Shown: positions 1,222 to 58,645 of the stretch, piece by piece
Layout of the letters: every line of letters starts with the position of its first letter
Position numbering within the stretch: position 1 is the stretch's first letter
Assembly: GCA_006384855.1 (NCBI GenBank)
Contig: VCJN01002289.1
Span: 1 to 64,000, forward strand
Reading direction: 5' to 3'
Source: Tetraselmis striata
Taxonomy: Eukaryota; Chlorophyta; Chlorodendrophyceae; Chlorodendrales; Chlorodendraceae
Length of the DNA: 64,000 bases
The notes under the pieces: generated by a model
Told to the model about the DNA's origin: nothing
Seen by the model: only the letters and a program-made list of their open reading frames with translations
Databases searched by the model: none
Program-made: the position numbers and the translations under genes

Positions 1222-4200
1222 TCACAGCTCCTCACGGGCGGCCTTCTTGTTGGACTTGCCCTTCTTGCTCTTCTTGCCTTTCTTGGAGGCCGCCGCCGAC
1301 TTGGCCTGGGCCGCCGCCGCCGCCGCGTCCTTGGCCGCCGCCTCCGCCTCGCGCCGCACCGCCTCGTCCGCCTCCCTCAGCCGCTGCTCGTTGGTGACGG
1401 CGCCCTCCTCCACTTCCTCGCCCATAATGTCCGACAGGTCAAACTCCTCCTCCACCTCCTCCTCGTCCGCCGCCACTGCCGCGTCGCCGCCCTCCGAAAT
1501 CTCGGGGAGTTCCTGCAGACACGCCACGACCGCGTCAGGCTCCACGCAGGCACACCGAGGCGGGTCCCACGCGGCAGCGGCACAGTCCGCCTCGCCCCCG
1601 CCATGTCCTCCTGAAAAGAACGTCGTTCCGGGGCTCGGCGAAAGTAATCGTGAGCTACATCGTTTCCGCTTGATCAAGCTGACCCAAGCCAAAAAGTGAT
1701 TAGGTCGAAACGTTCAGAAACAATTAGTCGAAAAGTTGAGTTATAGTCGGAAACTAACTAAAAGGGAGTGGCCCTAATTGAAATGCACTGAAAGGGGGCA
1801 CGCAAGCATCCCACCTGAATCCAAGTTCAGCTTGTTAAGGACGCAACGTGAACTACCGCCACCAGACACACCGGTTGCAAAGAGGGAACCAAGGGACGCG
1901 TACCGTCTAAGAGACGAAGTTCACCGAACTCTACCGAAATCGGCGCCGCGTATTTAAAATCGCACTTGGCCATCCTGTGCGCGCTCCGCGTCGTTATTGA
2001 GCCCAGCGCGACTTTTAGAAGTCGGCGGCATTGGGTGACGCGGACGGCGGTGCACACATGGACCGCTGTACGTTGTTGCAGTGGGGGCTGCAGCGACATC
2101 GACCTGCCTCCGGGACCGCACGATGCTTCTCACTCACCCGATGACCGGCTTCCAGATCGACACGCAAGCGGGCAAAACCCAGCAACCGAGCTGTCTTAGC
2201 TTGTCTAGTCACCGGACTCGTGAAACGACGAAACCCATTCGCATACTGTGCCGGTAACCGCGATCTTGAGATGGGAAATCGGTCTCCTGCATTCGGGCCT
2301 TGCACCAGTACGCCCGTGGCTGGCTTTGCAGCGATACAGCCGCACAGACGGGTGCCGGACCGGTCATACAAACATCACTGTGAATAAGACGCGGCCCTGT
2401 CTGCCAGAGGCCAAAGGAAGACAAAACTGCCGCGGAACCAAGGGGTGCCGGCGCGCCTATATGAAACCTTACTCTGAGCCACAAATTGGGCTTTCTGTGC
2501 AACCTATATGAAGAATAACATTCCCTATATCACAGGTTCGTCTAGATTTGACGTCTGGCAGGTAGGGCAGGGCGGGGCAGGTTCTCATCGCGGTGTTGTT
2601 ATTACCGCGCCGGCACCCACCGTGGTGCTCCGAAACCACTGCTATTTATACGACACACCTAAGAACCCATATTATAAATAAGCCTCTAATTGGGATTGCA
2701 TGCCACCTACAGGAACATTAATTATAGGTCCGCAATAGTTTCGCAATGGCAATCTACAAATACATAAGTAGCAGCAGTGATTTCGGAGCAGTATACATAC
2801 GCGTGCCAACGCGCGGCAACATAAAAACTACACCGCGAATAAGACACTGCCCTGCCCTGTCTGCCAAAGGTCAATTCTATACCATATAACCTACAGGAAA
2901 TATTATTAACCCAATTTGAGACTTAGAAAAAGGGTTCTCATAGGTGCGTCTGCAATCAGTAATGCCAGTGGCTTTCTTTTTTCATAGGTAGCAACAGTGG
3001 TTTCAGAGCATCAGTACGGGTGCCGACGCGCAATAATATTAGAACTACACCCTGACTACACAGCCAATAATAGACTGCCCTACCCTGCGCTTCCTGCCGG
3101 AGTTCAATGCTAGACAAAACTACACAAAATGTTCATCTTATAGGTTGCACGCAAATCCCAATCTGGAGCTTATGATAGGGCCTCTCATGGGCGCGTCGGC
3201 ACCCGTGGTATAGCGCCTGTCGGAGGTTCGCAATTGGGATGGGGGAGGGGGGGGGGGGGGGGCAAACCCGCACCTGCAGGGGCACCGTCTTGACCTTGCC
3301 GCTGAGCACGCCGTCCACCAGCGCGCCGATCGCTGACTCGCCGAACGAGCCGCGCAGCAGCGCGTAGCGCCGGTGGTGAGCCGACAGGATGAGCACGGTG
3401 GGCAGGTCGGTGCTGCGCGCGCCAAAGGCGGCCGCGAACTGGTGCTGCGCGGCGCCATCCACCCACACAAAGCGGACGGGGCTCTCCGCGTGCTTGCCGG
3501 CAACCTGGTGGGGAGAGCACCCAGGGGTGGCGAGTCACCACCCGGGCTGCGGATATGGAGTGCGGCGCTGCAGCGCATGGCATAAGAGACTAGAGATTAG
3601 TGGTTGCATGGACAGATGGATGGATGGATGGGGAAGCGCGCGAGACGGCCACCAGGGGGGGGGGGGGGGGGGCACCTTTGCCACAATGGCCTTCTTCTTC
3701 TCAAGCGCCTCCGCCTGCACCACAACGCGCAGCGCGAGGTGAAGCCGGTGTGGGGGGGGGGGGGGGGGGGGGGGGCAACAGACTCAGACCGCTTCATACC
3801 CGAGAGCAATACCTCCTCCACAACGGACTGATTGTTCGACAGGCATGTGTTGGTCTACGCATGTCTATGGGTGCCGACCCACCTGTAAATAAGAGCCCAT
3901 AATAGTAATGTGTTTAGTCTAAATTTGGGCTGGCACGCAAGCCCTCGTAACATTTCCCATATTTCCACGATGGCTCTGTCCATCTTTGACCTCTCATACT
4001 TCACACATCTCAGTGTTTTTATCACCCTGTCGGCATTAGGATTCAAGATATACAGGTGCCACCGTGGGAATAGGGTCACTGCGAATGAGAACCTGCCCTG
4101 CCTGCCAAAGGTCAAATGTAGACAGCGCTATAGTGGAAATATAGGTAGCGAGTGTTCTTTTACGTGGCATGCAAGCCCAATCTGTAACAAAGGCTCTTAT

Positions 4201-7200
4201 AGGTACGTCGGCACCAGTATATGAGTATATAAATACATACATTTATATGTATATATGTTTATATTCATATGTATATTCACATTTACTTATATTCACATTT
4301 ACTTATATTCATATTTATACCTTTACACTAATGGTTATATAACAATACATGTATGTGCTATACATACATATGTATATATACATATATGTTTACTATACAA
4401 TTGAAAACAAAACACATGGAGAGAGAGAGAGAGAGGGAGGGAGGGAGGGAGAGCGAAGGAAGGGGGGCTCACGTTGCTTCCGTCCAGCAGTGCGATGGCG
4501 CAGAGGCCGCCCGCCTCCACGCAGCGCGCCTCAAAGTCCTGCTGGCTGGCGATGGGCTCCAGTGCGCCGGGCGGTGCGGCGCCGGGCTCGGCGGGTTTGA
4601 TTTGGATCTCGCTCAGAAACTTGTACACGTTGGGGTACTTGAGGGGCGGCGGGATGGGGATCACGCCCAGCTGCCCGTCTTGCTGCGGCGCCAGCAGGTA
4701 CATGGCCGGAAACTTGGCGGTGCCTGGGAAGCTTGCCAGCGACTACGAGCAGGGGCAGGGGGGTGGTGGTGGTGGTGGTGTGTGTGTTGGGGGGGGGGGG
4801 GGGGGGGTAAGCGTCAATGCCAATTAGTGGCAGCCAGAGGCCGGGAAAGGGGGGGTGGGGGGGCACATGGCAGCGGGGACACAGCAGCCTCACCTCCTTG
4901 TCGTCCTTGTGAATCTCGGCGAAGCCAAAATCCTTGTGGAAGTTCATCGCCAGCGCGCGGAACATCGCCGGCGTCTGCTCCTTGGCCGTCATGAGCAGCA
5001 TCTGGCGGGGGCAGGGCAGGACGCAGTGCCACTTGTGAGTCCAAACGGTTGCGCAGCTCGCCAGCGTGTGTGCCTACCCAGCGGGCGGCAGGCGCACGCA
5101 CGCCCCGCTGCGCGCACCTTGGGCCGTTCGAGGTCGGCGCCCAGGTATTGCTGCAGGATCTGCGCGTTGAGGCGCAGGACCAGGTTGGGGAAGGACTCGT
5201 GGACAAAGCTCTGCCGGAGTGGGGGGGTGGGGGGGGGGGGGGGGGGGGTCAGTCACTAATAGTGAAACCAGTGCTCGTGAGGGAGTGGTCGGCAGTAAAG
5301 CTCAACACCAAGCCGCACGGCGGGGTGACGCCTAGCATGGCCAGTACTAGGGTGATTATGCTAGCTAGATTACGATATCTAGATTCTACTCTTGATTATG
5401 CTGGGTGCTGTTGATTTGGCACCTAGGTACTATTGATTAGGCTAGGTGGATTATGTATGAGCATTGCTGTGTGATTATGCTAATACCAATCAGACCGTAC
5501 ATATACGTCCCATAGACCGTGTAACCCACTGTACCATGAGGTAATTTCCGAATAAATCCTGTAGCTAGTACCAGTTTTTACAATACCTGTTTGCACTATC
5601 CGTTTTCGATGCCCGCTACAATCCCGTTTCGACTCGTCGCTCCTGGTACCGTGCCTGACCGCAGTAGCACGCCGTGTGCTGCGTGATGATAATAACGAAT
5701 TGCAATAGTTTACGCAATCTTATCGGTCTGTCGGTCCGAATTCCTGTAACCCTTGTCTAATCTGAAAAACCTATGTGTAGTTCTTCTTAATAATATATGG
5801 GCAGTACACAATAAGAGAATGTAATCAGTGCTATCCGAAATCGTTTCACAACACGACTAAGATGTACCTGTCTGTTTTCTAGTTGTCAACACGTTATCTA
5901 TTCTTGTCTGTTCTTTTCTCGTCTTCTCTAATTGCCCGACCTGTATGGTGCACCTATGACAACCCTCGTTACAAGCCTCTTATCCGGCTTGCATCCCACT
6001 GGTAAAAAGAACATTTGCTATTGTTCATCCGATTTACACTTTCGGCTATGTTTGACCTCTGGCAGGACTTTTATTCGCCGTGTTCTCCTTACCGCACCGG
6101 CACCCGCCGTACTGCTCCGAAACCACTGCTACCTAAAAATAGACAGCCACTGACACATACGGGTGCCGACGCACCGATGAGAACCTTCATTATATGCCTC
6201 TAATCTGGCTGGCATGCCACCTATAAGAAAACATTCGCTACAGTTCTGCTGTATTCGCAATGCCACATTTGGGCTCTGGCAAACGGGGCATGTTCTCATT
6301 CGCATTGGTGTTATTACCACCGCGGCGGCACTTGTAGCCAGGTGGAAGGGCCCCCCACCTGCAGCTCCTGCTTGTCGGCCAGGTCGCCGGTGAACACTTC
6401 CGGGTCCTCCTCCTCCTTGTCCTCCCCGTAGGGCCACAGGGCCAGCTTGGGCGTGCACGGCGCCTCCCGCAGCGCCTGGATCAGCGTGCCATCGTCCGCG
6501 GCCAGCCCCTCCATGCCCTCCACCCCGCTCCCGAGCACAATGTAGTACATCGGCAGCATCCCTGGCGGCACAGCGACAGGGGCGGCCGGCACGAGGGAGA
6601 TGAGGCAGTGGGCAAATGCGGGCACACACTGAGACTGCCCCACGGGTCCCGTAACCAGTGACAGCACTGACGGTGCCAGTGGATGCCACGGCCCATACTC
6701 CGCATGCAGAATCAGATATCAGGACAGCGTGGGTGTCACAATACTGCGAATCAGAGCCTGCCCAGCCTGCCAGAAGACAAACGTGGACAAACTACAGCGA
6801 AACTACAGCGGACGCTCCTGTGGGTTGCATGCGAGCCGGATATGAGGCATATAATGAGGGTTCTTATAGGTGCGTCGGCTCTTAGTATTGAAACCAAACC
6901 CGTATCTTAGTATTGAAACCAAACTTGTACTAATAGCCGCGACAAAGTGCTCACACTACTGCTCACACTAGTACTGCCGCAAGGACGGTAAAAGTAAAGT
7001 AAAGTTCGCCATGGGTCATCGGCCGAAGCCGCCCCAACACTTTACCCCTTGCGCCATCTGCAGCCGCAGGTGTGGCATAGCCCTTAAACACCATTATCTC
7101 ATTCGAACCCAAAGGGCTAATGCACCAACCAGTTAAGCCCAGAACACGGCCGGGTCGATATTTCCCTGAGTGGAAGAGCCGAGAATCAAACCCGGGGCCT

Positions 7201-15199: not shown

Positions 15200-15243
15200 A
15201 GCAGTCTCGACTCTAGCAGTCGAGCAGAGTGTCAGCTTACTCT

Positions 15244-16284
15244 ATGCCGACTCGGACCCGAGCCTCAGCCTCCCGAGACGCTACACCTTCCCCACCCCGC
15301 GGCAGCAGGATGCCCCCTCGCCCTGTACCGGAAGACGCCTTAGCGGACGACGCCCCGGGCGGCGCCACGGCGGCATCTGTCGCGGAATTGGAGAAACGCC
15401 TGACGGCCCAAGCGGAAGCCCTGGAGAAGCGGCTGGCCGGGCAGTTTGAGGCTGCTACGGCTGCCTTGCTCGCTCGACTCGCCCCCCCCACTAACCCGCT
15501 TCCTCCCGAAGGTACCCAACCAGCCAACCCCGCGGGCACGCCTGCGCCCGAGGGTGGTGAGCAAGGAGCGCGAGAGCCCCTTCCTGCTGAGCTAGACGCA
15601 CCCGACAACGAGCTCGAGTACGTCGACTTTGCCTACTACGGCCGAGTCATCCCCCCCGGTCTGGAGCGCCCCCCGCGCGACGTCGACGAGCCCCGCTTGT
15701 GGACCCTGACCGACGACACCGCCCGCGCCCTCGCGGATAAGCGGAGTCAGGCAGCGTACGACGAATACCTGCACCTAGGCTGCTATGCCTTCTTCAGTAG
15801 CTGCGCCAACGAGGCGATGCGCGGCGCTCTGGGGTCGCTTTCGACCGAGTCTGCTACGCCGGCAAGCAAGGCTGCGGCCCTTGCCGAGCTCCGCGCCTGC
15901 TACCGCACCCACTTGGCGACGGAGGAGGCCACCCGTTCCCGGTTGGGCTACCTCCAGCTCGCCAAGAATGGACCTACGGCTACAGAAGCGGACCGTGTTT
16001 TCGCCGAGCTCGCCCACGCAAAGTTCTGCACCCCACGGCGCATCGCCGTGTCCGGGCAACTCGACCAACTCCGCCGAGCGTTCGACGACAAGACCCTCGA
16101 GATCAGCCTTTCCGCAGCGGGCAAGGCCCGTGCCGCGGCCGCGTTCGCCAAGGCTACCCCCGACAAGCCCGCCCCCACGGAGTCCGCCGAGAGGCGCAAG
16201 CAACGCGAGCAAGCCGCTGCGGCACGGAAGGCCGCAGCGACAGCCGCAGCGTCCGACAAGGCCAAGGCGAAGGTCACCAAGTGA
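15244..16284 (+). CDS. Retroelement ORF1, Gag-like
   Basis: 346 residues from the first ATG. The N-terminus is Pro/Arg/Ser-rich, a short heptad-like helix follows (AELEKRLTAQAEALEKRLAG), and the C-terminus is rich in Lys/Ala (QRREQAAAARKAAA type). No zinc knuckle is present. Its place as first ORF, just after repeat A1, is that of Gag in DIRS-type elements; assignment rests on position and composition, not on recognisable family motifs. The stop lies 46 nt before the presumed start of the reverse transcriptase ORF. Confidence 0.65.
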   Translation: MPTRTRASASRDATPSPPRGSRMPPRPVPEDALADDAPGGATAASVAELEKRLTAQAEALEKRLAGQFEAATAALLARLAPPTNPLPPEGTQPANPAGTPAPEGGEQGAREPLPAELDAPDNELEYVDFAYYGRVIPPGLERPPRDVDEPRLWTLTDDTARALADKRSQAAYDEYLHLGCYAFFSSCANEAMRGALGSLSTESATPASKAAALAELRACYRTHLATEEATRSRLGYLQLAKNGPTATEADRVFAELAHAKFCTPRRIAVSGQLDQLRRAFDDKTLEISLSAAGKARAAAAFAKATPDKPAPTESAERRKQREQAAAARKAAATAAASDKAKAKVTK

Positions 16285-16330
16285 CGGTGTGGCCCGCCGC
16301 GCCGACTCCTGTACGCCTACCTCCCTCTAC

Positions 16331-18088
16331 ATGCGACACCGCGTGCGGAGAAGATGGCGCGACTGGGAAAGCATCGGCGCGAGCGGGCAAGTCTTGAGTT
16401 GGATCCGCCAAGGGGTCCGGATACGCTTCAAGAACGGGCGACGCCCTCGCCCCTACAACCACGGCGTCTCTATGCGCGACGCCACTCAGGCACAACTGGA
16501 TTTCATGGCTACGGAACTGCCCCGCTTCGAGGCGATTGGCGCGTGGGAGCGAGGACACTGCAACAAGTGGGTATCCAGAATGTTTCTAGTCCCCAAGCCC
16601 GGCACCAACAAATGGCGCCTCATCATCGACCTACGGGAGCTCAACAAGTGGTGCAAGACTTTCACGATGTCCTACGAAACGCTCAAGCACCTGCGGCACC
16701 TGGCGCGCGCGGGAGATTGGTTCGTGTCGATGGACCTGGCCGATGGCTACTACGCCCTTGGGATTCGGGAGGAGGACCGCGACTTCTTTACCGTGAACTA
16801 CCGAGGGGAGCTGTGGCGACTCGCGTGCCTACCGATGGGTTGGACATGCTCGTCGTACTGCTTCTGCAAATTGACGGCGGCCTTTACGGACTACCTGCGG
16901 ACGCCCCTGAAGCGGCGCGACCCAGCGTTGCCTCCCACGGCCCCGTCCAAGCCTACTCGCCGTTTCCTGCGCAACACTCGCTGGCGGGGCGAGCGGCTCC
17001 TACCATATATGGACGACTTCCTTTTCCTCGCGGACTCCCGCGAGGCAGCCCTGGAGCTACGCGTCCGGCTAAGCACCTTGCTGGATCGCCTGGGCCTACT
17101 GCGCAACCCCAACAAGGGAGTCTGGGAGCCCACCCAGGTCGGCCCTCACCTGGGCATGATCATCGACCTGAAGCGCGGCGAGTTTCGCGCCCCCGAAGAG
17201 AAGCTCATCGCTCTAGCCAAGGCCGCCCGTTCGCTCCTTGGCCGCGCAGCCTCCAACAAGCGCTGGCTCCCAGCTCGGCAGCTGGCGTCCTTTGCGGGCA
17301 AGGCGCAGTTCCTGTACTTGGCAGTTACGCCGGCCCGTTTCTTTTTGCGGGAGCTGCACTGCGTCCTCGCCACCCGGCAGGGCTGGGGCGGGCGCGTCAG
17401 GATGACAAACCAGCTGCGCCGCGACCTAGAGTGGTGGACCCAGGTACCTGCGCAGCACAACGGTCGCTCTATGTACAAGCCTGTGGAGACCGCGTATCTG
17501 CACGCGGACTCTAGCTCGTACGGATGGGGAGCTGTGCTAAACAACAACAGCGCTTACCAGGCGCGCGGCTTCTGGTACGAGGACGACCGCTCGCGTCACA
17601 TCACGTGGAAGGAGCTTCGCGCGGTACGTCACGCGGTCGAATCGTTCCTGCCGCAGCTCCGAGGACGGCGCGTCTTACTGCACGAGGACAACACGGCCGT
17701 AGTGGCAGCGCTGACCAACCTTACCTCTCGGTCGCCCGTCATGATGGAGGAGCTCCGCAAGCTGTGGCACCTCCTGGATATCCACGACATCTCCATCAGG
17801 CCCCGGTACATCCAGTCTGCAGCCAACGTTTGGGCGGACCGACTCAGCAGGGAGCTGGACGACTCCGACTGGCAGCTCAATCCGCGGATATTCGCGTACC
17901 TGCAGCGCTTGTGGGGTCCGCACACCGTCGACAGATTTGCGTCGATGGAAAATACGCAACTTCCACGGTACAATTCCCGCTGGCGCGACCCGCATTGCGA
18001 AGCGGTGGATTCTCTCCATTTGCCGGACGAGTTCTGGCGCAGGGAGCACAATTACTGCAATCCTCCGTGGGGTTTGTTGGACGATTAG
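16331..18088 (+). CDS. Retroelement ORF2, reverse transcriptase-RNase H
   Basis: Start taken at the ATG after ORF1; the frame is open further upstream. Reverse transcriptase blocks are in order: SRMFLVPKPGTNKWRLIIDL, FVSMDLADGYYAL, LPMGWTCSSY and the catalytic YMDDFLFLAD. RNase H follows: LHADSSSYGWGAVL, WKELRAVRHAV, LHEDNTAVVAAL and ANVWADRLSR. The C-terminal segment HTVDRFAS..NTQLPRYNSRW..NPPW is the extra domain seen in DIRS-type polyproteins. That domain is cut by a TAG at 18086-18088, yet the same frame continues for 79 codons (APHWPGRRWYQLL, PPTRDLFFPG) to a stop at 18326-18328. Confidence 0.88.
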   Translation: MRHRVRRRWRDWESIGASGQVLSWIRQGVRIRFKNGRRPRPYNHGVSMRDATQAQLDFMATELPRFEAIGAWERGHCNKWVSRMFLVPKPGTNKWRLIIDLRELNKWCKTFTMSYETLKHLRHLARAGDWFVSMDLADGYYALGIREEDRDFFTVNYRGELWRLACLPMGWTCSSYCFCKLTAAFTDYLRTPLKRRDPALPPTAPSKPTRRFLRNTRWRGERLLPYMDDFLFLADSREAALELRVRLSTLLDRLGLLRNPNKGVWEPTQVGPHLGMIIDLKRGEFRAPEEKLIALAKAARSLLGRAASNKRWLPARQLASFAGKAQFLYLAVTPARFFLRELHCVLATRQGWGGRVRMTNQLRRDLEWWTQVPAQHNGRSMYKPVETAYLHADSSSYGWGAVLNNNSAYQARGFWYEDDRSRHITWKELRAVRHAVESFLPQLRGRRVLLHEDNTAVVAALTNLTSRSPVMMEELRKLWHLLDIHDISIRPRYIQSAANVWADRLSRELDDSDWQLNPRIFAYLQRLWGPHTVDRFASMENTQLPRYNSRWRDPHCEAVDSLHLPDEFWRREHNYCNPPWGLLDD

Positions 18089-18328
18089 GCGGACAAACTG
18101 CGACAGTCGGGCGCGGCCGCCACGGTCATCGCACCGCACTGGCCAGGACGGCGTTGGTACCAGCTGCTGCAAGACCTCGCCACCGAGACGATTGTCTACC
18201 CGCCTACCCGCGACCTCTTCTTTCCTGGGCGGCGGGGAACGCGCGCGGGGGTCGGACTGCCCGGCTGGAGCGTCGTGGCCTTTCGGCTGCCACGCCGGCA
18301 TGGCTGCACCTCCGCCGTGGGTCGCTAG
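18089..18328 (+). pseudogene. Continuation of ORF2 beyond an in-frame TAG
   Basis: 79 sense codons in the same frame as ORF2, with the conserved APHWPGRRWYQLL segment of the DIRS-type C-terminal domain, ending 8 nt before the recombinase ATG. The upstream TAG is probably a disabling mutation; programmed readthrough is the alternative. Confidence 0.7.
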
Positions 18329-18336
18329 GCCGGGCT

Positions 18337-19641
18337 ATGGCCGTACAGCCGTCGCTGCAGTACGGTGTGCAGTACGGTGTGCAGTACGGTGTGCAGTACG
18401 GTGTGCAATACCCGGGCCGCCTGTCCCACACTCGACGCGCGCGCTACCGGCTTGCGGCGCGCGCCGGCTCTGAGGCGCCCTGGTCGGCATCAATGGCGGC
18501 CGAGCTCCGGTCTTTGTTGGGGACCGACGACGTTGGTCAAGCGGCGCTCGGGTTGCTTGCGGGTTCGCTGGCGGCCGGCACCTACCGCAACTACGACAGC
18601 GGCATGCGCTCTTTCGCTACTTTCTGCGAGCAGGAGGGCTTACGCCCGCTGCAGGCTACTACCAGCACAATCGTCCGCTACACTGCCTGGCTAGGCATGC
18701 AAGGTACCGTCGGCGCGGATTCCCTTCAACAGTACTACTCGTCCATCAACAAGTACTTCCGCGACCATCAGCGCCAGCCTATCGCCCTCGGCGAAATGGT
18801 AGCCGACGCGCGCCGCGGCCTGGCTATCCAGCAAGAGCGTCTTGCGGCGGAAGACGTCCGCGTCGCCCTGCCTGCGCCCGTTGCGGCTGACATCCTAAAC
18901 ACCGCGATTGGATTTCGGCAGACATTGGTGTGGGAACCCGCTAGTATTGCGGACATCCGCGCTTTCAGAGCCGCGCTCGCGACGATTACGGCGTACGTCT
19001 TCCTGTGCCGCGCGGAGTCCGGCATTAGCTGCGAGACCGGTGATTTAGTGGTCGACCGGCCGTCCGGAAGCATTCTACTGTACGTCCGCAAACAGAAAGG
19101 CGACCAGCGTACGAGGGTTTCCGCTAAGCCCCTGATAAATCTGCCCATCGCCGCCGTTCCGGACTTCGCTGACCTGCTGGACTGGTACACCGTCAATCGC
19201 GACGCCTACTGCCGCCGTTTCTACGGCGCCAGCCCGCCGCCCAAGTTCTGGAGCATCTCCCCGCTGGAGTCTTCCGCCACTTGGTCGGTTTCAGCCACTC
19301 TTACCGAGTGGTTGCGGGAAGCCTGCCTGGCGGCAGGCGCCCGACCTCCCACCGGTTTCAAGTGGACATCGCACAGTTTACGCAAGGGTGCCGCTTCCGC
19401 AGCAAGCTGCGTCGGCGTCCCCTTGCCGGCCATCAAACACATGGGCGACTGGTCGAAGAACAGCGAGGTGGTCACCGGGAAGTACATCGACCCGACCATG
19501 CGCCCGACTCCTGCGGCATGGAGGTTCTTCGGTTGGCTCGTCCCCGTCCGGCCGCCGGCCTCAGCTTCCTGTGCTAGCCTTTGGCTTTCGTCTCTGGCAA
19601 ACAGTGCCTCCTTGGGTAAATGGTCAGATGTAGTCATCTAG
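18337..19641 (+). CDS. Retroelement ORF3, tyrosine recombinase
   Basis: 434 residues. The N-terminal part holds a tandem QYGV repeat and a SAM-like core-binding domain (LLAGSLAAGTYRNYDSGMRS, FCEQEGLRP). The catalytic domain shows the family residues: Arg in AYVFLCRAESG, His and Arg in SHSLRKGAAS, and Tyr in VTGKYIDP. It is predicted to integrate the circular cDNA by strand exchange. The ORF runs into repeat A2 before its stop. Nothing seen would inactivate it. A short relative is present at 43543-43641. Confidence 0.9.
   Translation: MAVQPSLQYGVQYGVQYGVQYGVQYPGRLSHTRRARYRLAARAGSEAPWSASMAAELRSLLGTDDVGQAALGLLAGSLAAGTYRNYDSGMRSFATFCEQEGLRPLQATTSTIVRYTAWLGMQGTVGADSLQQYYSSINKYFRDHQRQPIALGEMVADARRGLAIQQERLAAEDVRVALPAPVAADILNTAIGFRQTLVWEPASIADIRAFRAALATITAYVFLCRAESGISCETGDLVVDRPSGSILLYVRKQKGDQRTRVSAKPLINLPIAAVPDFADLLDWYTVNRDAYCRRFYGASPPPKFWSISPLESSATWSVSATLTEWLREACLAAGARPPTGFKWTSHSLRKGAASAASCVGVPLPAIKHMGDWSKNSEVVTGKYIDPTMRPTPAAWRFFGWLVPVRPPASASCASLWLSSLANSASLGKWSDVVI
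18356..18408 (+). repeat. 12-bp minisatellite within the recombinase ORF
   Basis: Four to five copies of TGCAGTACGGTG, encoding (QYGV)n near the N-terminus of the recombinase. The unit preserves the reading frame. Confidence 0.95.
19595..19623 (+). repeat. Element repeat B1
   Basis: 29 bp from TGGCAAACAGTGCC to GGGTAAATGG, identical to B2 at 19894-19922 and overlapping the first bases of A2. Confidence 0.9.
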
Positions 19642-23312: not shown

Positions 23313-24329
23313 TCAACCCAGTTGCCTCTCCATGAATGACGCAATGGCGTCAAAGTAGGCCACCGCAGTGCTGTAGAAGGGAAAATGGTCGGCCTCCTCT
23401 ATCACCGCCACCTCGACGCCGTCGCAGGCTTGCACGCACGGCATCCTGGCCTCCTCGGGCGACTCTGTTGGGTCTGCACCGGCAACCACCAGCAGGCACG
23501 ACGGCGGGGGTCTCCCATCCCGGGCTGCCAAGCCCTCAGGCAGCCTGTTGATGGCGGACCACCCGCGCATGCTACCCGTCACCTCACTTTCGCTCTCCCC
23601 CACTAGCGTGCGGTACACCAGCGAGCCGATAGAGCCGTTTCCCAGTGCCTCCTCTTCGTCCCGCGCTATGAACTCGCGCAGGTCGCTCGGGAGGCCGGCG
23701 CGGTGCACCTGATGCCGCTGTGCATACGCCGTCTCGTCCAGCGGGCTGTTGCTCACCACCGCCCCGTGAAGCAACCCCACCGCCTCCACGCCCCCGCTCA
23801 TCAGCAGCTCCAGGACCACCTGGCCCCCAAAGCTGTGGCCCAGAACGAACAGGGGGGGGCTTCTATTGCCCCAGTCTCGCTCCTCTGCGGCTGCCCAAGT
23901 GAGCACATCCGCCAGCTCCTCCACGTACGCAGACAGGGAGTACGCCGCCGCGCTGTCCGGCTTGTCACTCTCGCCACACCCAAGCTGATCGTACCCCAGC
24001 AGTATGACGCCACCCGGGAACGTGCGGCGCAGGCGGTGCGCCAGGCTTGCGGTGGCGCCCTGATGGGGAGAGGCGAATGCGGCGAGCACCTGCTTGTGGC
24101 TCTCCTCCAGCCCGGGCCCACCGTGCACCAGCACAAGCACACAGCAGCGGCCTGCGTCACGCAACGGTGACGGGCTCAGCTGCGCTCCTTGCCCCTGACC
24201 TAGCTGGTCTTCCCCCCCTCTTTCCTCCTCACCGAAGACATGCGCCTGCTGCAAGTGTATGGAGTGCCCAGTGCGCAGCGTCAGCCGGTGCGTAGCGGTA
24301 GACGGCTCACTGCCGGGGGACACCGTCAT
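23313..24329 (-). CDS. Proline iminopeptidase-like alpha/beta hydrolase (peptidase S33)
   Basis: A single-exon gene of 338 residues with an ATG at 24329. Alpha/beta-hydrolase landmarks: oxyanion-hole LVHGGPG, LLGYDQLGCGESDKPD, the nucleophile elbow VLGHSFGG, the acid in VVAGADPTES, and the catalytic His in EEADHFPFY. HGGPG together with DQxGxGxSxxP is characteristic of the proline iminopeptidase family, which removes N-terminal proline from peptides. A cap domain lies between the nucleophile and the acid. An Arg/Ser/Thr-containing leader of about 60 residues includes an acidic low-complexity stretch. No clear transit peptide was seen. Esterase or amidase activity on other substrates is possible in this superfamily. 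Confidence 0.88.
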   Translation of the reverse strand: MTVSPGSEPSTATHRLTLRTGHSIHLQQAHVFGEEERGGEDQLGQGQGAQLSPSPLRDAGRCCVLVLVHGGPGLEESHKQVLAAFASPHQGATASLAHRLRRTFPGGVILLGYDQLGCGESDKPDSAAAYSLSAYVEELADVLTWAAAEERDWGNRSPPLFVLGHSFGGQVVLELLMSGGVEAVGLLHGAVVSNSPLDETAYAQRHQVHRAGLPSDLREFIARDEEEALGNGSIGSLVYRTLVGESESEVTGSMRGWSAINRLPEGLAARDGRPPPSCLLVVAGADPTESPEEARMPCVQACDGVEVAVIEEADHFPFYSTAVAYFDAIASFMERQLG

Positions 24330-25464
24330 TCTCGCACTACCAACTTTCAGTTAGTTATTGGCAGCTTTCGCTGGTGGCCTCCACAGGATTCCTTGCGCTT
24401 GCAATAGGACGCCGTGACAGTGCTGCCGCCAGGGCGCGTTCCGGGGGGGGGGGGGGGGGGGTCAGAGTCAGTTATGCTCCGAAACCACTGCTACAAACTC
24501 GGAGTCTAGCAGCAGCAGGCAGTGCTCGACTCTTGAATCGTACAAGATAGCAAAGGAGATGAATATAGAGGGGGTGAAATACGGGGGTGGTGTCCGGCGG
24601 GGATGGCACGTTAATTAAGGGTTGGGCTGTCGCGGTGGAGTCACATTCCCAACGCGCGCATGGGTATATCGGCTGTTCCGATATGCGCCCCCGTCGCTGG
24701 TGTCCCCGCCCGACTGCCCGGGCCCCAGCGCTAGCGCTCGCTAGCTCGATGCTGCGCTACCACTTAGAAGGTTACTGTTGTGATGAATACACAGTGCACC
24801 AGGGTAAGAGGGCTTGACTTACTCGTCCTCAACCGCCTTCGTCGCTCCTCATCTCGAGACGTCAAGTGGGTGCATGTGTGATGTGCTGGCGCTGCGGTCA
24901 CCTTCTCTGTCAGCATAGTACCACATGGTACAAGTGTACGAGGATTGGCTTCTCCGCAGTACTTAACTGCTGCTGATGAACCCGCGATTTGTGTGCACTG
25001 CGGAGGCGCTGAGGCTGGCGTGGCAGAGCACCGTAAGGATAACGATATAGCAAAATATTCACCGCGACAAGGTAAATCAGAAACGCGCATGGCCGAAGGA
25101 GATAGCCGCCGGCAAGGCGGGCGAGGGATGCTCAGCTTGTCACGGCAGAGGTCACGGCAGCGGGAATGCTGCGCGGGACACCGGCCCGTCAGCATCGGTG
25201 GACACGACACAGCGTCGGCTCCAGGCTGCGGCGCCAGAATCTCCCCCCCCCCCCCCCTCCCCCGCGCGCGCGTCGCCCAACAGCAGCCGTAGTCGTATCT
25301 GTGCGCACACTCCATCCCAGACCAGCGACGCGTGTCGTCGGCGCTACTGGTGCAGCTGTCGGTAAAGAGGGGCGCGGGTGGGCGTTGTGACGGGCGGGCG
25401 TCGACTCGACGGGGCGGCCGCCGGCCTTCCGTCCACCTGCCCGAGAGCCACCAGACGGGGTGCC
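24330..25464. other. Divergent upstream region between hydrolase and 2OG-Ctr gene
   Basis: Contains a poly-G run (24442-24460), a fragment of the dispersed repeat (GCTCCGAAACCACTGCTAC at 24477-24495), and a poly-C run (25242-25255) before the 2OG-Ctr gene. Open frames here give only low-complexity, frame-shadow proteins. Confidence 0.45.
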
Positions 25465-28400
25465 ATGGCGCCGCAGCGACAGTGGCGCGTCGCGCTGCTC
25501 GTGTTTGCGTTGGCGATGGGGATCGAGTGGCGCGGGGCGGCGGCGGAGGCACGCGAGCTGGCATTGGCAACCGTGACGCTCGGCGAGCTGCAGGTGCGGC
25601 ATGGCGACCCCCAAGGGGGGGGGGGGGGGGGGGGGGGGTCGGTAGCCCCGAGCCAGCCTGCTCAGCCGCATCGTGCCGAACCAACCACTGCCCGTTTGCC
25701 CGTTTGCCGAGGATCGCGATGCGAACAGACAATATGCCGTTGTCGTCAGCGGTGAAGTTGGCACTCACTCGCTCTTGCTGGTACGCCTTCTGGCTGCTAC
25801 AGGCACCCACGCCCTCCACGACCCGCACGGTGGCGAGCGCTGTGGCGCAGGTGGGCGCCTTCGCCGTCACGTTGCCCGGCGATGGCGGCGACGCCGTGGC
25901 GTCCGCGCTGCGCAGCTACGCCGGCTGCTCCGGCGGCGGCCACGCCGGCGCGGCCGAGCTGAAGCAGAGCGTCCTGGACGATGGCGCGGCGCGCACCTCG
26001 CTGGCGCTGGCGCCCGCGGACGACGTGCCGCCCGCGCTGGCGAGATCGTGCCCGGGCTTCGCGGCCGCTAGCCCGGCGCTGCGCCACCTGGTGGCCGCCA
26101 CCGGCGAGGCCTTTGCTGCCGTGCTGGACGGCCTCGCTTTTGGCCAGCGTGGAGATGCCCCCAGGCCGATGGGGCCCCCAGAAGACGATGCGCTCACGCC
26201 TGTGCCGGATGGGTTTGCTGCCGCCGTGGCGCATGGGCAGAGCCTGGAGCACTTCCACGCGTACCGGCGCCCTGGTGGTGAGCCTGCCAGCGGCAGCGAC
26301 GGCGCTGCCCCCGCCAACGCCACGCTGGGCATGCACGTGGACCTGGGCCTCTTCCTCGTGATGGCGCCCGCGGCGCTGCTGGCGGCGGACAGCCTGGCAC
26401 CCGCGGCCGCCCCCGCCGCGGCAGGCCTCCTGCTGGCAATGCCGGGCGGAGAGGTGGTGCGGCCGGCGGCCCCCGCGGGCGCGCTGGTGGTGATGATGGG
26501 CAGCGGTGCGCGGCGCTGGGTGGGCGGTCTGCCGGCGGGGCTGGTGCTGGCGGCGCCCCCGCACGAGGTGGTCGTCCCGGCCGGCGGCGGCCTCGTGCGC
26601 TCCTGGTACGGGCGCATGTTCCTGCCGGAGGCGCGCGCCCGCCTGGACGGCGGCAACCTCACGTACGGGGCGTACCGCGCCCAGACGGCCGCCGCGTTCG
26701 CGGCCGGCACGCCGGGGGAGGCGTCGCCCGCGGGCTGCGGCCCGGGGGAGGCGCTCGGCGACGAGAAGACCTGCGCGCACGGGGAGATCTACTGCTGGAT
26801 GACGTGCATGTCCACCGCCAAGCTGGACTGCGGCGCGGAGGAGCCGGTGTGCAGCGACACGGCGGGGCGGCGGTGGCCGGAGGAGTTTGAGGGGCCGGGC
26901 GGGCGGCCGCTGCACTGCTTTGACTGCCAGGCGTCGTGCCCCGCGGCGCCGCGCCCGCCGCCGGAGGCCCTCTCCATCTGCAACGCCAACCTCAGCGCGA
27001 CCGTCATGTGGATGCAGGGCTTCCAGGCGATGGAGGTGGGCGCGGGGCAGCCCTGCATCTCGCTGCTCTTCGAGTGGGCGGTGCTGGACAGCCGGGCCGC
27101 CTTTGCCGCCGGTGCGGCCGCCACCTTTGTAGGCGGCGTGGGCGTGGAGTACATTGTCTACGCGCGCCGCCGCATGCTGGCGCACTGGCACCCGCCCACC
27201 ACGCCCGCCACGCGCGCGCGCTTCTACGCCGTCACCGTCGCCGTGTACGCGCTGCAGGTGGTGCTCGGCTACCTCCTCATGCTAGTGGCCATGACGTACC
27301 AGGTGCGCCCCCCTTCTCCGCCAGCCACCGCTGTGGGCACTGATTAGACAATGAAGCGGTGTAGATGGGCTGCCCAAGCGGGCACAGCGGTAGTCGGGAT
27401 TTGAGGAATGGGTTTGAGTCCGCCGCGACGTTTATGGTGACCAGCCTTCTCACGGTTGGCGAAGACGGGGATGTTGTCGGCGTCGACTGCCACGCCCTTT
27501 CAGCGGCAGGAGACGCTCGCCTTGTTGCGGGAGTGAAACAGTGACGCCAAACACACGGCGAGGCAGTCGCGCAGGGTGCAAATCACTTCCCGCGCTAATC
27601 CTAACAGACATTTTGCGATCCGAATACGGTACAGATAATCATCGTATCCCGGAGAGTCATACGCCCCCTGGAGTAGGGGGCTCGCGTTCCCGTACAGCAG
27701 GCTTTGCAGACCCTGCAAAGGCATACGGCACACTGATTCACACATTTGGCGCCGATTCCACACCGCGCTTGCACCTGTTTTATCATATCGGCGCCGCCAG
27801 CCGTGCCGTTGTACTCCGTGTCACACCCAAGCGCTGCCTGCAGCATGTCTCATGGTAGCTACCCTCACGTTCCTAAGCCACTCTGTCACTGATCCTGCCA
27901 TCGTACGTAGCGCACGCATGCGCCCGTGCCTGCACCCAAAAGGCCCAAAAGGAGTACATCAGTCGCAGAGTCCCAGTAAGAGTGCCTATGGGCTGTGTTG
28001 TGCTGCCACTCTTGCCATCTGCCTCGGTGAGGCCAGCAGCCCTGTATTTGTGTACTCCCAACCGAGTGGGGTCGCACCGCAACAAAGGAAGGTGGGGACA
28101 GACAAGCCCCCGGATGCTGCTTCGTGGTGTGCACCAGGGGAGGTCATGCACAACACCAGAGGAGTGTGCACACGACGAAGCAGCATCCGGGGGCAGCGCT
28201 ACCCGGGATGGCTGCGCTGGGTACTGCACGCGGAGGTGCCATACGGGCGTGCGATGTCGATGCAGCTCCTCGAGGCATATTTATACTAGCACCGGAGATA
28301 GCACCGTATTTGTGGTGTACCGCGCCTGCTAAGTAAACGACGAGGGAAAGGAAACCTCAACGACTGGTAGTAAATAGACGTTTCCTTCTGCCTTGGCAGA

Positions 28401-29005
28401 CTACAGACGGCACCGTTGGGGTATGAGTACATGTATGTATCAGTATTGGCTAGTGACACATCCAGGTAGGTCATGCATGGTCGCCGCATTTCTAATTCAA
28501 ATACATAACGTCTTTTATGTGTACGATGTATATACATAAGAAATAATTATATATATAAATATATAACTACAATTTCTTGGTGTATTGATTAATACATTGA
28601 ATGACATGGTATAGTATATTAGTACGTTGTGAACCCCCTCCCACCTCCCATCCCCTCCCCCCCTTCTCTGCATCAGTAGATGAGGCTGATGTGGCGCCCT
28701 TCATTGTCGCTTGATGGTGCCAGGTGGAGCTCTTTGTTGCCGTCGTGGCAGGACTCACCGCCGGGCACGCCATCTTCAACGCCAAGGGCCCCGTGCTGGA
28801 CAGCTCGGACGCGTGCTGCATGGGCCTGGACCCCTGGTCCCCGCGGCCGGACGACCCGCCAGACGCGCTGCAGCGCCGGCTGTCCGTGCCGGAGGACGAC
28901 CTTGCCCAGCTTGCCGACCCGCTGCTGGCCAACGGCGGCGGCGGCGGGGGCGGCGGCGAGGCTGCCGACACTGCCCACACCGGCAGCGCCGCCCGGTGCT
29001 GCTGA
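25465..29005 (+). CDS. Apparent fusion: secreted 2OG-Fe(II) dioxygenase-like domain plus Ctr copper transporter
   Basis: Exons 25465-25593, 25803-27302 and 28724-29005 join in phase 0 (636 residues). A signal peptide (VALLVFALAMGIEWRGAAA) is followed by a region with isopenicillin-N-synthase-like features: GMHVDLGLFLVM (H221, D223), then GALVVMMGSGARRW and PPHEVVV (H297), matching the HxD...H iron triad. Next is a Cys-rich stretch (YCWMTCMST, HCFDCQASCP) and MWMQGFQAM, a Met motif as placed before TM1 in Ctr proteins. TM1 (FEWAVLDSRAAFAAGAAATF), TM2 with the MxxxM copper motif (YLLMLVAMTYQ) and TM3 with GxxxG (VVAGLTAGHAIF) follow; the tail is Gly/acidic and ends RCC. It is predicted to import Cu(I) at a membrane, with the oxygenase-like domain outside. 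Whether that domain is catalytic is unknown. Confidence 0.8.
25613..25638. repeat. Poly-G run in intron 1 of the 2OG-Ctr gene
   Basis: About 25 consecutive G starting some 22 nt after the exon 1 donor. Confidence 0.95.
28107..28193. repeat. Imperfect inverted repeat in intron 2 of the 2OG-Ctr gene
   Basis: Arms at 28107-28135 and 28165-28193 pair at about 27 of 29 positions (CCCCCGGATGCTGCTTCG with CGAAGCAGCATCCGGGGG), with a loop of about 29 nt. This may be a small foldback element or an RNA hairpin inside the 1.4 kb intron between TM2 and TM3. Confidence 0.85.
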
Positions 29006-29816: not shown

Positions 29817-31775
29817 AAGACGAACCTGCCCTACATGCGCTAGCAGAGGCCAGCAGTACACAGAGGCTTACCCGATGAACAATCGCGACAAAGTATGTGA
29901 TTATTGTAACAGGTTGTATGCAAGCGAAATTTGTTGTGGCTTAACTAATGATATGGGTGCGTATAGGCGGTGCGCGCCGTGGCTTCCGGCGTATAGGTAT
30001 CATCAGTGGTTTCGGAGCAGTACGACGGGGTGCCAACCCGGTAATAGTACAAGATCAACACAAAGGCAAATACGAGCCTGCCATACCTGCCTTCATGAGA
30101 GGTCGGATCTAGATAGAATAACTACTTCCTATAGCGAATGTTGGTCTTATACTACCGGTCATTGCATGCAAGGTAGCCAATAATCTGACGCACACAAATT
30201 TTTAGGGTTTTAGGGTTGTAGGGTTTCTTGTAGGTGCGTCAGCACCCGTAGTGTCGGTGGCCATATGTATGCATAACAGGTAGCAGCAGTGGTTTCGGAG
30301 CAGCAGTACTGGTGCCGACGTGATAATCGGCGGGTAATATAAGACCACAGCAAACAAAAACCTGCCGCCCTGCCCTGCCCTGCCCTGCCTGCATGGTTCA
30401 ATTATTCTCCAAAAAAACTATATTGCGAATGTTCTCATTATATACAGGTTGCATGCGAAGCCCAATTTTCGGCTCAGGATAAATACTATATTACATGTGC
30501 CTCAGCATTCGTAAATGTCAATGGCTATCTATTATGCATAGGTAGCAGCAGTGGTTTCGGAGCAGTAGGACGGGTGCCGACACGGTAATCGACGGCTAAT
30601 GTAAGAACATAGAGAACAAGAACCTGCCTTGCCCTGCCTGCCAGCATGGGTCAATTATTCTAGACGGAACTATATAGCGGATGTTCTCATTAATATATAG
30701 ATTGCACGCGATGCTCAGATCGGGGCTCAGAATAAAGGTCATTATATGTGCCTCGGCATTCTTAAATGTCAATGACTATCCATATGCATAGGTAGCAGCA
30801 GTGGTTTTGGAGCAGTAGTACGGGTGCCGACACGGTTATCGATGGGTAATGTAAGAACACAGAGAACAAGAACCTGCCCTGCCATGCCCTGCCTGCATGG
30901 GTAAATTATTCTCCAAACGAAACTATATAGCGAATGTTCTCATTAATATATAGGTTGCACGCGAAGCCCAATTTTGAGCTCAGAATAGAGGTTATTATTT
31001 GTTTCTTAGCATTCGTAAAACGCAATGGCTATCTTTATTATGCATAGGTAGCAGCAGTGGTTTCGGAGCAGTAGTGCGGGTGACGACGCGCGTCGTACAT
31101 ACATACGGGTGCCAATGCGATACTAATGTAAGCACAAAAACAAGAGCACATCATTCAGCACAAGAACACTTAAAATAAACACATCGAATACGAACCTGGC
31201 TTGGCCTGGCCTGCCGGCAGCGGTCAATTTTAGACGAAACTATACAGCGAACGAATGTTCTTCATATAGGTTGCATGGAAGCCCGATTTGAGGCTCAGTA
31301 GAATATGGGCTCCATCTTATTACGGGTGCGACGAGACTCGTATATTTGTCAGTGGCTATCTACAATAAACATAGATAGCAGCAGTGGTTTCGGAGCAGTT
31401 GTATGGGTGCCGACGTGGCAATAGAAGAACACAGCAAATAAGAACCTTGCTGAGTGCTCTGCCCTGCCGTGCCCTGCCAGAGGTCAGCTCTGGACGATGA
31501 AAGTATAGCGAATGCTCTTCTTTCTTATTTACAGGTTGCGTGCAAGCCCAACTTGAGAATCCCTGCCCAACTTGAGAGCCCAACTTGAGAATCCCTGAAT
31601 AAGGATTCAGGGATTCTTATGGGCGGTGCGTCGGCACCCGTATGGGTATAGCGTCTATCGGTTGTTATTGGTGCGTCGGCACCGCGCGTACATGTCAGTG
31701 GCTACATACATAGGTAGCATCAGTGGTTTCGGAGCACTATGGGTGCCGATGACGCGAAAATACATCTTTCCACAA
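29817..31775 (+). repeat. Tandem array of the GTGCCGACGC repeat
   Basis: Seven diverged monomers in one orientation. The GTAGCAGCAGTGGTTTCGGA box recurs at about 29996, 30279, 30541, 30791, 31046, 31373 and 31713, giving periods of about 283, 262, 250, 255, 327 and 340 bp. Each monomer contains, in order, GCATGCAAGCCCAATTT, GTGCGTCGGCACCCGTA, AATGGCTATC, the box above, ACGGGTGCCGACGC, CGAATAAGAACCTGCC with CCTGCCCTGCC, and ACGAAACTATAGCGAATGTT. GCGTCGGCACCCGT and ACGGGTGCCGACGC are inverse complements, so each unit can fold. No open reading frame is conserved between monomers. Confidence 0.9.
30198..30228 (+). repeat. Short interstitial telomere-like repeat
   Basis: TTTTTAGGGTTTTAGGG followed by TTGTAGGGTTT, two to three TTTTAGGG-like units. 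TTTTAGGG is the Chlamydomonas-type telomere repeat. It sits inside the tandem array. Confidence 0.6.
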
Positions 31776-51289: not shown

Positions 51290-54200
51290 ATGGCACTGCA
51301 TCCGGACGAGAATAGCCCAGCTACCGCCGCCCTAGTGGCTGATGCGCACGCTGAGGCCTCCTCGGTATTGCCCACCGAGTCGTACGAACCAGTGGCGCTC
51401 ACCAACGAGGAGGTTCGTAGGTCCCTGTCTACCGCTGACTTTGCCATCCCTGCGGATAATCCAATCGAGGGCCTGTCTCGTACTGAGAAACGTTCTGCTA
51501 TTCGCCGGTTCCGTCAACGCCAGTACGCTAAACAACGACAGGCTAAAAAGAATATTGACCGACCAACTGCCTGCCCACCTGACTCTATTCGTTTTGATAA
51601 AACTGAAATGTCTCGACTAAACTCTGAATATGGTCCTATAACTCCGGACGCTAGTGCCTCTGCGTTTGACGATGTTTGCCCTGAGTACTGCTCTAAGGAT
51701 AAACCCTTTACCTCCACTTCAGCAATTGGTCATGCTGTACTAATACATCCACCGTACGACGAATCAGTATTGCCAATCCTCGAACATTTTGAGTCTCAAC
51801 GCCAGGAATCACCTTATGACACCCGTGCTATAATCATTTTGCCCCGCTGGTCTTCTGACTTAGGGAAATCTTAGACCCCTATACTGAAAAAGTACAAATG
51901 ACTCCATTCCTACCCCGCGGGTACCTACATGTTCCACATTGCCACATATGCCACTGAGGACTTGCCTATGCCACCCACACAGTGGATAGTTGACATATAC
52001 CTCGCAGATAGCACTGTCGAGGAACGTGAGGCTGCTGTCATGGTCACGGAGGACTACAAAGCCCTCAGCTACGAATCTCAAGGTAAGACATACATCCCGC
52101 GTGCCCGGGTCAAGTCGCACCAACCCCGCTTTGAAACAGAAAAAAGCCTTTGTAACGTCTATGAACGACAACGATCTGCTATTACTCAAACCGACCCTGA
52201 TTGAACACCCTGCTCTACCGCCCGCTACTATGATGCTCGATAGCGGCGCTACCCTTTGCTTTATTGATGAACAGTATGTCCGCCTAAACAAAGTACCCAC
52301 TCAACCTCTAAACAATAAAATACGGATCGTCATGGCTGATGGCCGCCTGTCTCTCGCGGCTAAACCATGCACCCTCAAGTTGAATAGCGACTATAAACGG
52401 TTATACGGCTACAGTTGAATTTCTCGTTACTACATTACAGAACTCGTTCAACTGTGTACTGGGCATGTCCTTCCTAAAATCGCACAACCCCAATATTGAT
52501 TGGTCAACTGGTAAATTAACTTTTCCCGATGGCAGTGAAATAATCTGTCCTAACGTCGATATCGTTTACGCTAATCCTATGGCTCGTGAGATAAAGCGAA
52601 AAGATCCGAATACTGTCTTTTTCTGCGCAATCCTAAAAGAATATGACGCTACTGAAACAACTACCGCGGACCAAATTGACTCCGCAGTGACTACTGACCA
52701 AACCACAGAATACACTAAAAACGTACATGCTATACTGCTTGAGCACCGCTCCATTTGCCAACCCCTTGACTCCCTACCGCAATCACGCCATGGCCTCGAC
52801 CTTGAAATACCGCTAACCGAAAATGCCTCTGTTCCGGCCGGAAAAGTCTACCGACTTTCACCCGCTGAATTAGAGGAATTAAAGAGACAGCTTAACATCT
52901 TCTTAGAGAAGAGCTTTATCCGTGAGTCTTTCTCTCCCTTTGCCGCTCATGTCATATTCGCTCGAAAGGCAAACGGCGGCCTCCGCATGTGCATCGACTA
53001 CCGTCAGCTTAACAAATACACCAAACGAATCGAGTTTCATGTACCGAACGCGGACATGCTACTCGATATGATGTTTGGTGCTGCAGTTAACTCTGCTCTC
53101 GACCTTGCTCTCGGATACCACCAACTTCGCATCAAAGACTCTGACGTACAAGAAACTTCGTTTAAATGCCAGTTTGGTCAGTTCGAGTTTCTAGTAATGC
53201 CCTTTCATTGGCCTCACAAACGCCCCCTCTGCCTTCCAACGCTGGATGAACCATGTTCTACAGCCTCACAAAAACACCTTTATCCTCGTTTACCTTGACG
53301 ACGTTTTAATTTTCAGCAACTCTCTCGACGAACACCTCAACCATCTTGACATCAGACTCGGCTTACTAGCGCAGAATGATATACGACTACGGTTACCTAA
53401 GTGCTTTTTCGGTAAACATGAGCTCGAATACTTATTAGGGCAAATGGTCAGCAAAGTTGGCCTACGTCCCTTGATAATAAAGTCTCCGCCGTTAAGAACT
53501 GGTCCCCGCCGCGGTCTGTTCAGCAGGTCCAGCAGTTCCTGGGCTTTTGCAATTTCTACCGCCGATACATACACAAATACTCTCACTTACCTGCACCCCT
53601 TTACGACATTACTCGCAAAAAGAAAAAAATCGAGTGGGGCGTACGTCAACACACTACTTTTAATGCACTGAAACACGCGCTCTGTTCTGCCCCTGTAGTA
53701 AGGTAAATTAATTTCCCCTAGTACTAATGAGTCCTAAGACCGGTCCTGACGCGGAATTCGTCATGTCCACGGATGCCAGTAAATACGCTTTAGGCGCCGT
53801 TCTTTTACAAAAAGACGATTCCAACAAATTACGCCCGTGCGCATACTTTGCCAAAATACTACAACCTGCTCACACAAATTATCCTACATATGACCAAGAA
53901 CTATTGGGGGTTGTCTGCACGCTTAAAAAATGGCGCTGCTATGTCGAAGGTGCTGCTAGCATTACAGTTATTACTGATCATGCCACCTTACGTCATTTAC
54001 CAACTCAAGATGCCCTCGGCCGCCGCCACGCCCTCTGGCTCTCTGACATTTCACCTTATCTTGCCATCTCAACCCGCACTCAAAAACCTATTCTGTCAAT
54101 ACTTTACCGCAAAGGTAGTCGAAATGAAGCTGGCCCTATCCCGCCGACCTAATCTTAAACATGATGTCCTCACCGCTGAGAAAAGATTACTTGACTCCGA

Positions 54201-57898: not shown

Positions 57899-58645
57899 GC
57901 AGACACGGCCAATTCCGTGCCCTTAGGAGAGGACATGGAGGAGGGAGACGAGGTGTTGTAGGGCGTACAAGCGCCGCGCGACGTGGACGTTGGTAGCGCA
58001 AATCCGGCGCGACAACACCTCACATGCGGCGCGCACGGCTGTCCCGCCCGCCACCTCACACCCCACAACCAACACCGCCGCTCTTATTATGGCCACTAAC
58101 CACACCAACCCAACCCACATTATCTGCTACCATTACTCGTAGTCCCTCTAGACGCGACACCGCCCGAGCCGGTGAACAAGATGACACCGAGCCCCTCCTT
58201 CCACTTCGCACGTAGCTGCGCAAAGTGCGACGAAAAGCCACCGCTGCTTCGATTTCAGGAGCTTTGTGCAACCCTGACGAACATCCAGTCGTAGGAGCAG
58301 AGGGAGCGTCTCAACACGAGCTACTATTGTCGTCGTACGTTGACAATTGACGATATTAACTACGACGGCGACTAGCCGAGTGCTGTACGAGGCGGGGGCG
58401 GGGAAAAACGAGGCGGCGCAGGCCGTGAAACTCGTGCTGTGCTCAGCTCTCCAGCAGCGTTGCTTTTATTCGCAGCAATAAGATCGCTCCGCCTGTCGCG
58501 CCATTCTTAACAAGCGACTACTCAACGCTGCCGCTGTTCGCGTCACAGGCAGTCGCAACGACAGGCGAGTATAACGCGCCAATCTCGAATTAGCAACCAG
58601 ACTGCAGCGCTGCTCGACGGGAACCCGACGACGACGGTGGCGACG
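57899..58645. other. Upstream region of the ankyrin gene
   Basis: Mixed DNA with TTGTCGTCGTACG/TTGACAATTGACGATATT-type sequence at 58325-58355. No promoter motif can be singled out and no gene was seen. Confidence 0.35.

Follow-up and report, generated by a model that had tools for sequence, protein, structure and literature searches.

Transporters of the Ctr/COPT family carry the motif MxxxM-x12-GxxxG, which is described as common to all CTR proteins in PMC9502191 and as the family signature in PMC9502191 and PMC3103425, and human CTR1 comprises 190 residues in total (PMC3025362). In Chlamydomonas, CTR2 exceeds 800 residues and has different metal-binding sequences (PMC3025362), and both CTR1 and CTR2 complement a yeast ctr1 ctr3 strain (PMC3103425). 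Here we describe a gene of the green alga Tetraselmis striata (gene A), located at positions 25465-29005 of a 64,000-nucleotide stretch of contig VCJN01002289.1 (the window), that encodes a Ctr module preceded by a Cys/Met-rich linker and an N-terminal domain (N-domain) whose sequence profile matches that of 2-oxoglutarate (2OG)-Fe(II) oxygenases. A search of the 224 Mb genome (2903 contigs) places it with three relatives, gene B on contig C1693, gene C on contig C1373 and gene D on contig C2256.

Gene A resembles the short Ctr/COPT proteins (human CTR1, yeast Ctr1 and plant COPT) in having MxxxM-x12-GxxxG, an MxM motif before the first transmembrane segment (TM1) and C-terminal cysteines, but about 440 residues lie ahead of TM1 rather than a short Met/His-rich tail. 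A first-pass annotation of the window had regarded a short N-terminus as the norm for Ctr proteins, a generalization that is not supported, as large Cys-rich green-algal forms are known, and CTR2 of Chlamydomonas is of such a size (PMC3025362). Chlamydomonas CTR1 and CTR2, compared here by description only, are likewise green-algal Ctr proteins with a large extracellular region. The title of Page et al. (2009), on the Chlamydomonas CTRs, names both the Cys-Met motif and the plasma membrane. The motif known from those proteins, CxxMxxMxxC-x5/6-C, is present in none of the four genes, which instead carry C-x4-8-[YH]CWMxCM in their Cys/Met domains. We therefore place gene A among the algal CTRs, as a variant whose ectodomain receives an identity, rather than treating it as a transporter of a new kind. 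Large Cys-rich algal CTRs were known already, and what appears to be new is the assignment of the oxygenase fold. Among the matches listed in our literature searches, outside which most subscription papers lie, we found no description of a Ctr protein bearing a domain of the 2OG-oxygenase type.

Gene A is on the plus strand and has three exons separated by two GT-AG introns, both in phase 0, so that the splice phases proposed in the first-pass annotation do join the two parts; the joined frame of 1911 bases encodes 636 residues followed by a stop codon at 29003-29005, with an N-domain of about 300 residues, the Cys/Met linker and the Ctr module in that order. Exon 1 (25465-25593) contains the start codon, a stretch resembling a signal peptide by eye, and LALATVTLGELQ, the beginning of the oxygenase-like domain, and its end is at the same position wherever a first exon was located (genes A, B and C). 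Beyond intron 1 (25594-25802, 209 bp), the remainder of the oxygenase-like domain (25803-26714, residues 44-347) consists of a DIOX_N-like half and then a core with H193/H195, H221-x-D223, H297 and R309. The expected Cys/Met-rich linker is present at 26715-26987 (residues 348-438; C367...YCWMTCM...C386...C393...C415FDC418...C422), and is followed by the first part of the Ctr module (26988-27302), with the M445-W-M447 motif before TM1, a loop, and TM2 with M536xxxM540. Intron 2 (27303-28723, 1421 bp) interrupts the MxxxM-x12-GxxxG signature and is absent from gene B, and exon 3 (28724-29005) encodes TM3 with G553xxxG557, a tail with Cys pairs at 574-575 and 635-636, and the stop codon. Intron 2 also contains an inverted repeat, perhaps a small mobile element, whose arms of 29 nt (28106-28134 and 28166-28194) are 97% complementary.

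The fusion of the N-domain to the Ctr module does not depend on splicing, because exon 2 (500 codons) is one open frame that spans the N-domain, the linker, TM1 and TM2. Third-codon-position GC content (GC3) is 0.88-0.92 across the three exons; in exon 2 the reading frame has 0.92, and the two alternative frames have 0.75 and 0.60. The 27302/28724 junction, on which the first-pass annotation also relied, is confirmed by the last exon of gene B, which encodes MTYQVELF without interruption. With the fusion carried by a single exon and a paralogue of the same build, an artefact of splicing or of the gene model is rejected.

Pfam recognizes the Ctr family (PF04145) in the joined protein A with 44.9 bits against a cut-off of 25.3, and in protein B with 62.1 bits. 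The predicted MxxxM and GxxxG motifs are present in exact spacing, as M536LVAM-x12-G553LTAG (residues 536-557) in gene A and at residues 539-560 in gene B. In a Kyte-Doolittle scan with a 19-residue span and a cut of 1.6, the TM2/TM3 region of gene A exceeds the cut, as do the aligned TM1 of gene B, of which the signal-like start does not, and the start of gene C. The whole gene A protein very probably imports copper, and from its sequence the ectodomain would be secreted or extracellular.

A genome search with PF04145 hit three exons, which belong to two genes, the window gene and gene B; this search proceeds exon by exon, such that genes divided over small exons could escape it. Gene B encodes 637 residues in four exons, one with a GC donor (modelled by eye), and is 48% identical to gene A, with the alignment running from the start across the N-domain, the Cys/Met domain and the Ctr module. 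A protein search of the genome returned eight matches, seven of which (all with E below 1e-6) fall in the four genes, the eighth having an E of 1.1. Two of the four ectodomain copies, genes C and D, have no Ctr module. Gene C (locus L020, C1373:33000-42900, exons at about 1647-4629) has a signal-like start, the oxygenase-like domain, the Cys/Met domain, a His-rich HAGHDHVDGEHD stretch and a hydrophobic tail resembling a glycosylphosphatidylinositol (GPI) signal. Gene D (locus L021, C2256:78000-87900, 3284-5505) has the oxygenase-like domain, the Cys/Met domain, an extra domain of about 190 residues and a hydrophobic tail, and its sequence has strongly diverged from the other copies with the scaffold retained. 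The exon models of both were made by eye, and the first exon of gene D was not located. Chlamydomonas has a CTR-related protein without transmembrane domains, CTR3, and gene C is like CTR3 in combining an ectodomain and a Cys/Met domain with no Ctr module, but is unlike it in its GPI-like tail and in a one-base frame change that may reflect an assembly error or a pseudogene.

The extra domain of gene D resembles DOMON by eye, an identity that further tests did not support: it has no match to Pfam PF03351 and lies outside the PF03351 matches of the genome, and its hidden Markov model score of 18.6 compares with a shuffled maximum of 20.2 (n=100). Comparison of this domain with PDB sequences gave no relevant match, and a DOMON search of bacteria gave a match in one of 249 genomes. 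Scans of viral contigs found no relatives of the N-domain or of the fusion.

The identity of the N-domain was examined by comparing a profile of its four copies with a 2OG dioxygenase profile of 28 sequences (26 distinct), composed of 27 bacterial loci and the genome's own copy L006; the bacterial loci are those of 47 tried that passed an HxD...H...RxS filter, and loci L080 and L081 were left out. The PDB relatives of L006 include ethylene-forming enzyme, anthocyanidin synthase and isopenicillin N synthase. The two profiles match with a score of 72.8, a probability of 96.3 and a P of 1.8e-9 (for a single comparison) over 258 columns, corresponding to residues 34-342, and H221/D223, H297 and R309 are placed on their oxygenase counterparts. 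This bears out the relationship to 2OG-Fe(II) oxygenases put forward in the first-pass annotation at the level of profile-profile comparison, with no Pfam family matched. As in the plant and bacterial 2OG dioxygenases (PF14226 DIOX_N with PF03171 2OG-FeII_Oxy), both halves are homologous and the HxD...H and distal Arg stand at matching positions; unlike these enzymes, the N-domain lies below Pfam detection, has RxW for RxS, is fused to the Cys/Met and Ctr parts, and carries an invariant LEHFH ahead of HxD.

Several observations weigh against this reading of the gene. No Pfam family, PF03171 and PF14226 included, is found at E up to 10 on the N-domains of A and B or on the parts scanned in C and D, and no oxygenase emerged from searches of PDB sequences, whether the query was exon 2, a fragment of gene D, or the profile of two genes or of all four. 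Among single sequences compared with the 2OG profile, gene D is not significant (P 0.085) and gene A reaches only 4e-4, with 2e-4 for gene C and 1e-6 for gene B; an earlier oxygenase profile of eight sequences gave a P of 0.017 and a probability of 2.7. AlphaFold2 did not confirm the fold, with a mean predicted local distance difference test score (pLDDT) of 38.1 for exon 2 as a single sequence and of 34.8 with an 11-sequence domain alignment that included seven bacterial and three viral-contig oxygenases. As to topology, TM1 and the signal-like start of gene A are weakly hydrophobic and fall under the hydropathy cut, and residues 220-242 of its N-domain, which contain H221, exceed it. Genes C and D each have a one-base frame change (near L020:3630, inside exon 4, and near L021:4030), for which an assembly error or decay is possible.

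The oxygenase match could be explained by chance or by composition, the sequence being rich in Ala and Gly and the domain having some unrelated fold, and the lack of Pfam and PDB sequence matches, mean pLDDT values below 40 and the unconvincing result with the thinner template profile are what such an explanation would draw upon. So is the match of a gene D fragment (L021:4044-4412) to FtrA-P19 in the PDB at E 0.0037, but this is absent among the matches of the four-gene profile, and the relation to FtrA-P19 was dropped. Against a compositional effect, 199 of 200 column permutations that keep the composition score at most 23.0, and the other, at 133.8, spans four aligned columns and was taken as a numerical artefact; the reversed N-domain profile scores 16.9. 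Masking the triad and the Arg leaves a score of 52.7 (P 1.6e-6), and each half matches alone, the N-terminal half with 28.0 and the C-terminal half with 46.3, where the permuted maxima are 20.6 and 19.7 (100 permutations each). We therefore consider a chance match highly improbable. Homology of the N-domain to 2OG-Fe(II) oxygenases is taken as established on these profile data, we have little doubt of its oxygenase-fold ancestry, and the domain itself very likely has the oxygenase fold.

The residues H193, H195, H221, D223, H297 and R309 are kept in all four genes. The HxD...H pattern recognized in the first-pass annotation corresponds to H221-V-D223 and H297, and its GxLVVxxG/RW context to G269-ALVVMMG and R281-W282. 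Invariant columns make up 48 of the 329 in the profile, and the chance that four named columns would all be among them is about 5e-4 if independence is assumed. H193, H195, H221 and H297 are the four invariant histidines of the domain. H193/H195 were considered as a counterpart of the NxY motif known from plant 2OG-dependent dioxygenases, and this was dropped as two alignments differ in register. In the RxS motif that binds 2OG, R309 is kept in all four genes and Ser is replaced by Trp, which argues against an ordinary 2OG oxygenase. With the metal site kept and the co-substrate pocket altered, a role in metal capture, or an unusual kind of enzyme, is a better fit than a standard 2OG oxygenase.

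On balance, we lean towards the gene A product being an assimilatory Ctr-type Cu(I) importer with a copper-capture ectodomain built on a diverged DIOX_N and 2OG-FeII_Oxy fold. The analysis establishes the architecture, the profile homology, the conservation of the site, a further gene built alike and two relatives that lack a Ctr module, and secretion, copper as the metal, capture over catalysis and the order of transfer are what we infer beyond them. At the cell surface the ectodomain would catch copper or one of its complexes through H221, D223 and H297, perhaps assisted by the invariant H193 and H195. The Cys/Met domain, probably copper-binding, would receive Cu(I) and hand it on through M445-W-M447 to the MxxxM of the Ctr pore, and the cytosolic CC tail would deliver it to a chaperone.

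We see about an even chance that the ectodomain has this non-catalytic capture role, and there are two other possibilities. One is that it is an active oxygenase or oxidoreductase with Fe(II) or copper at the triad, either oxidizing an extracellular copper ligand to free the copper or reducing Cu(II) to Cu(I) beside the importer. Conservation of the triad and distal Arg in all four genes in spite of their divergence, and the constant pairing with a Cys/Met domain, speak for this, as do the requirement of Ctr for Cu(I) and the still uncertain route of surface copper reduction (PMC9502191). The RxW found in all four genes and the probably extracellular location stand against it, and Pfam detects no cupric-reductase (FRE-type) family in either joined protein, A or B. 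In the 2OG oxygenase family the Ser of RxS contacts 2OG, and an extracellular supply of 2OG, ascorbate and Fe(II) is doubtful, which further counts against activity. A catalytic role, whether ligand oxidation or cupric reduction, thus seems rather unlikely. Enzyme-fold domains can lose catalysis, and the ectodomain might instead be a pseudo-enzyme that binds no metal itself and acts as a structural spacer or as a receptor for a ligand such as a copper chelate. The altered 2OG contact and the far divergence of gene D with its scaffold kept are consistent with this, but a spacer gives no reason for H-x-D, H and R to be conserved in all four genes, and we regard the pseudo-enzyme as unlikely.

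Upstream of gene A there is a cluster of four GTAC cores at 24918-24962 (no strand assigned), with GGTACAAGTGTAC at 24927, position -538 from the ATG, a candidate copper-response element of the CRR1/SBP type. The copper regulator of Chlamydomonas, CRR1, belongs to the SBP proteins and recognizes a GTAC core, and the SBP family is reported only from the green plant lineage (PMC6600651). In the T. striata genome the SBP domain is matched 76 times, some genes having more than one match. Within 1 kb upstream of A, of B and of C, four GTAC fall inside 60 bases; in the window, 59 of 630 overlapping 1-kb stretches (that of gene A included) have a cluster of this kind, as do 8 of 172 stretches from background loci. 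The pattern GGTACAAN{1,2}GTAC stands at -538, -459 and -310 from the modelled starts of A, B and C, respectively, and its only copy in the window is that of gene A. Counting against a regulatory reading, it was chosen after being seen, and its 328 copies genome-wide, compared with 496 for the reversed control, show no enrichment. For these two reasons only the position of the GTAC-pair motif at the three genes is suggestive, and a copper-response function would be an inference from it. The sequence GGTACAACGTACC has 10 copies in the genome (16 for its reversed control), two of which lie upstream of genes B (-459) and C (-310). Two other copies, at C1575:20934 and C2358:26814, have SBP-domain matches some 1.8 kb away (C1575:18939 and C2358:28602), and possibly mark promoters of the regulators themselves, or else duplicated contigs.

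The window has several other features, the identities of which were assigned by eye. An open frame at 23313-24350 on the minus strand, adjoining the copper transporter gene, resembles an alpha/beta hydrolase of the proline-iminopeptidase type. Frames at 15217-19641 are like those for the reverse transcriptase, RNase H and tyrosine recombinase of a DIRS-type element, 52384-53298 is like a fragment of a Gypsy-type polyprotein, and a 667-codon frame at 58511-60514 has ankyrin-like repeats. The sequence GGTAGCAGCAGTGGTTTCGGAGCAG is present in nine copies (with at most three mismatches), where none is expected by chance; two are at 2767 and 2987, and the seven at 29996-31737 are downstream of gene A with a spacing of about 250-340 bases.

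A more far-reaching proposal would tie a redox- or oxygen-active metalloenzyme domain covalently to a copper channel, with liberation or reduction of copper and its import in one polypeptide. Partners with GPI-like anchors, one of them bearing a further extracellular domain that is DOMON-like by eye only, would use the oxygenase-fold and Cys/Met module again, and a single copper-responsive promoter element would control the whole as a system for foraging copper at the surface; we consider this combination improbable. As for the importer with a capture ectodomain, how cells free and reduce surface copper before Ctr import is described as unsettled (PMC9502191), and a transporter with an oxygenase-derived external metal site would offer a single protein in which copper liberation or reduction ahead of Ctr import could be tested. 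The oxygenase fold could also explain the nature of the large ectodomains of algal CTR proteins and, if the assignment is true, it would represent an unusual extracellular deployment of the 2OG-oxygenase fold.

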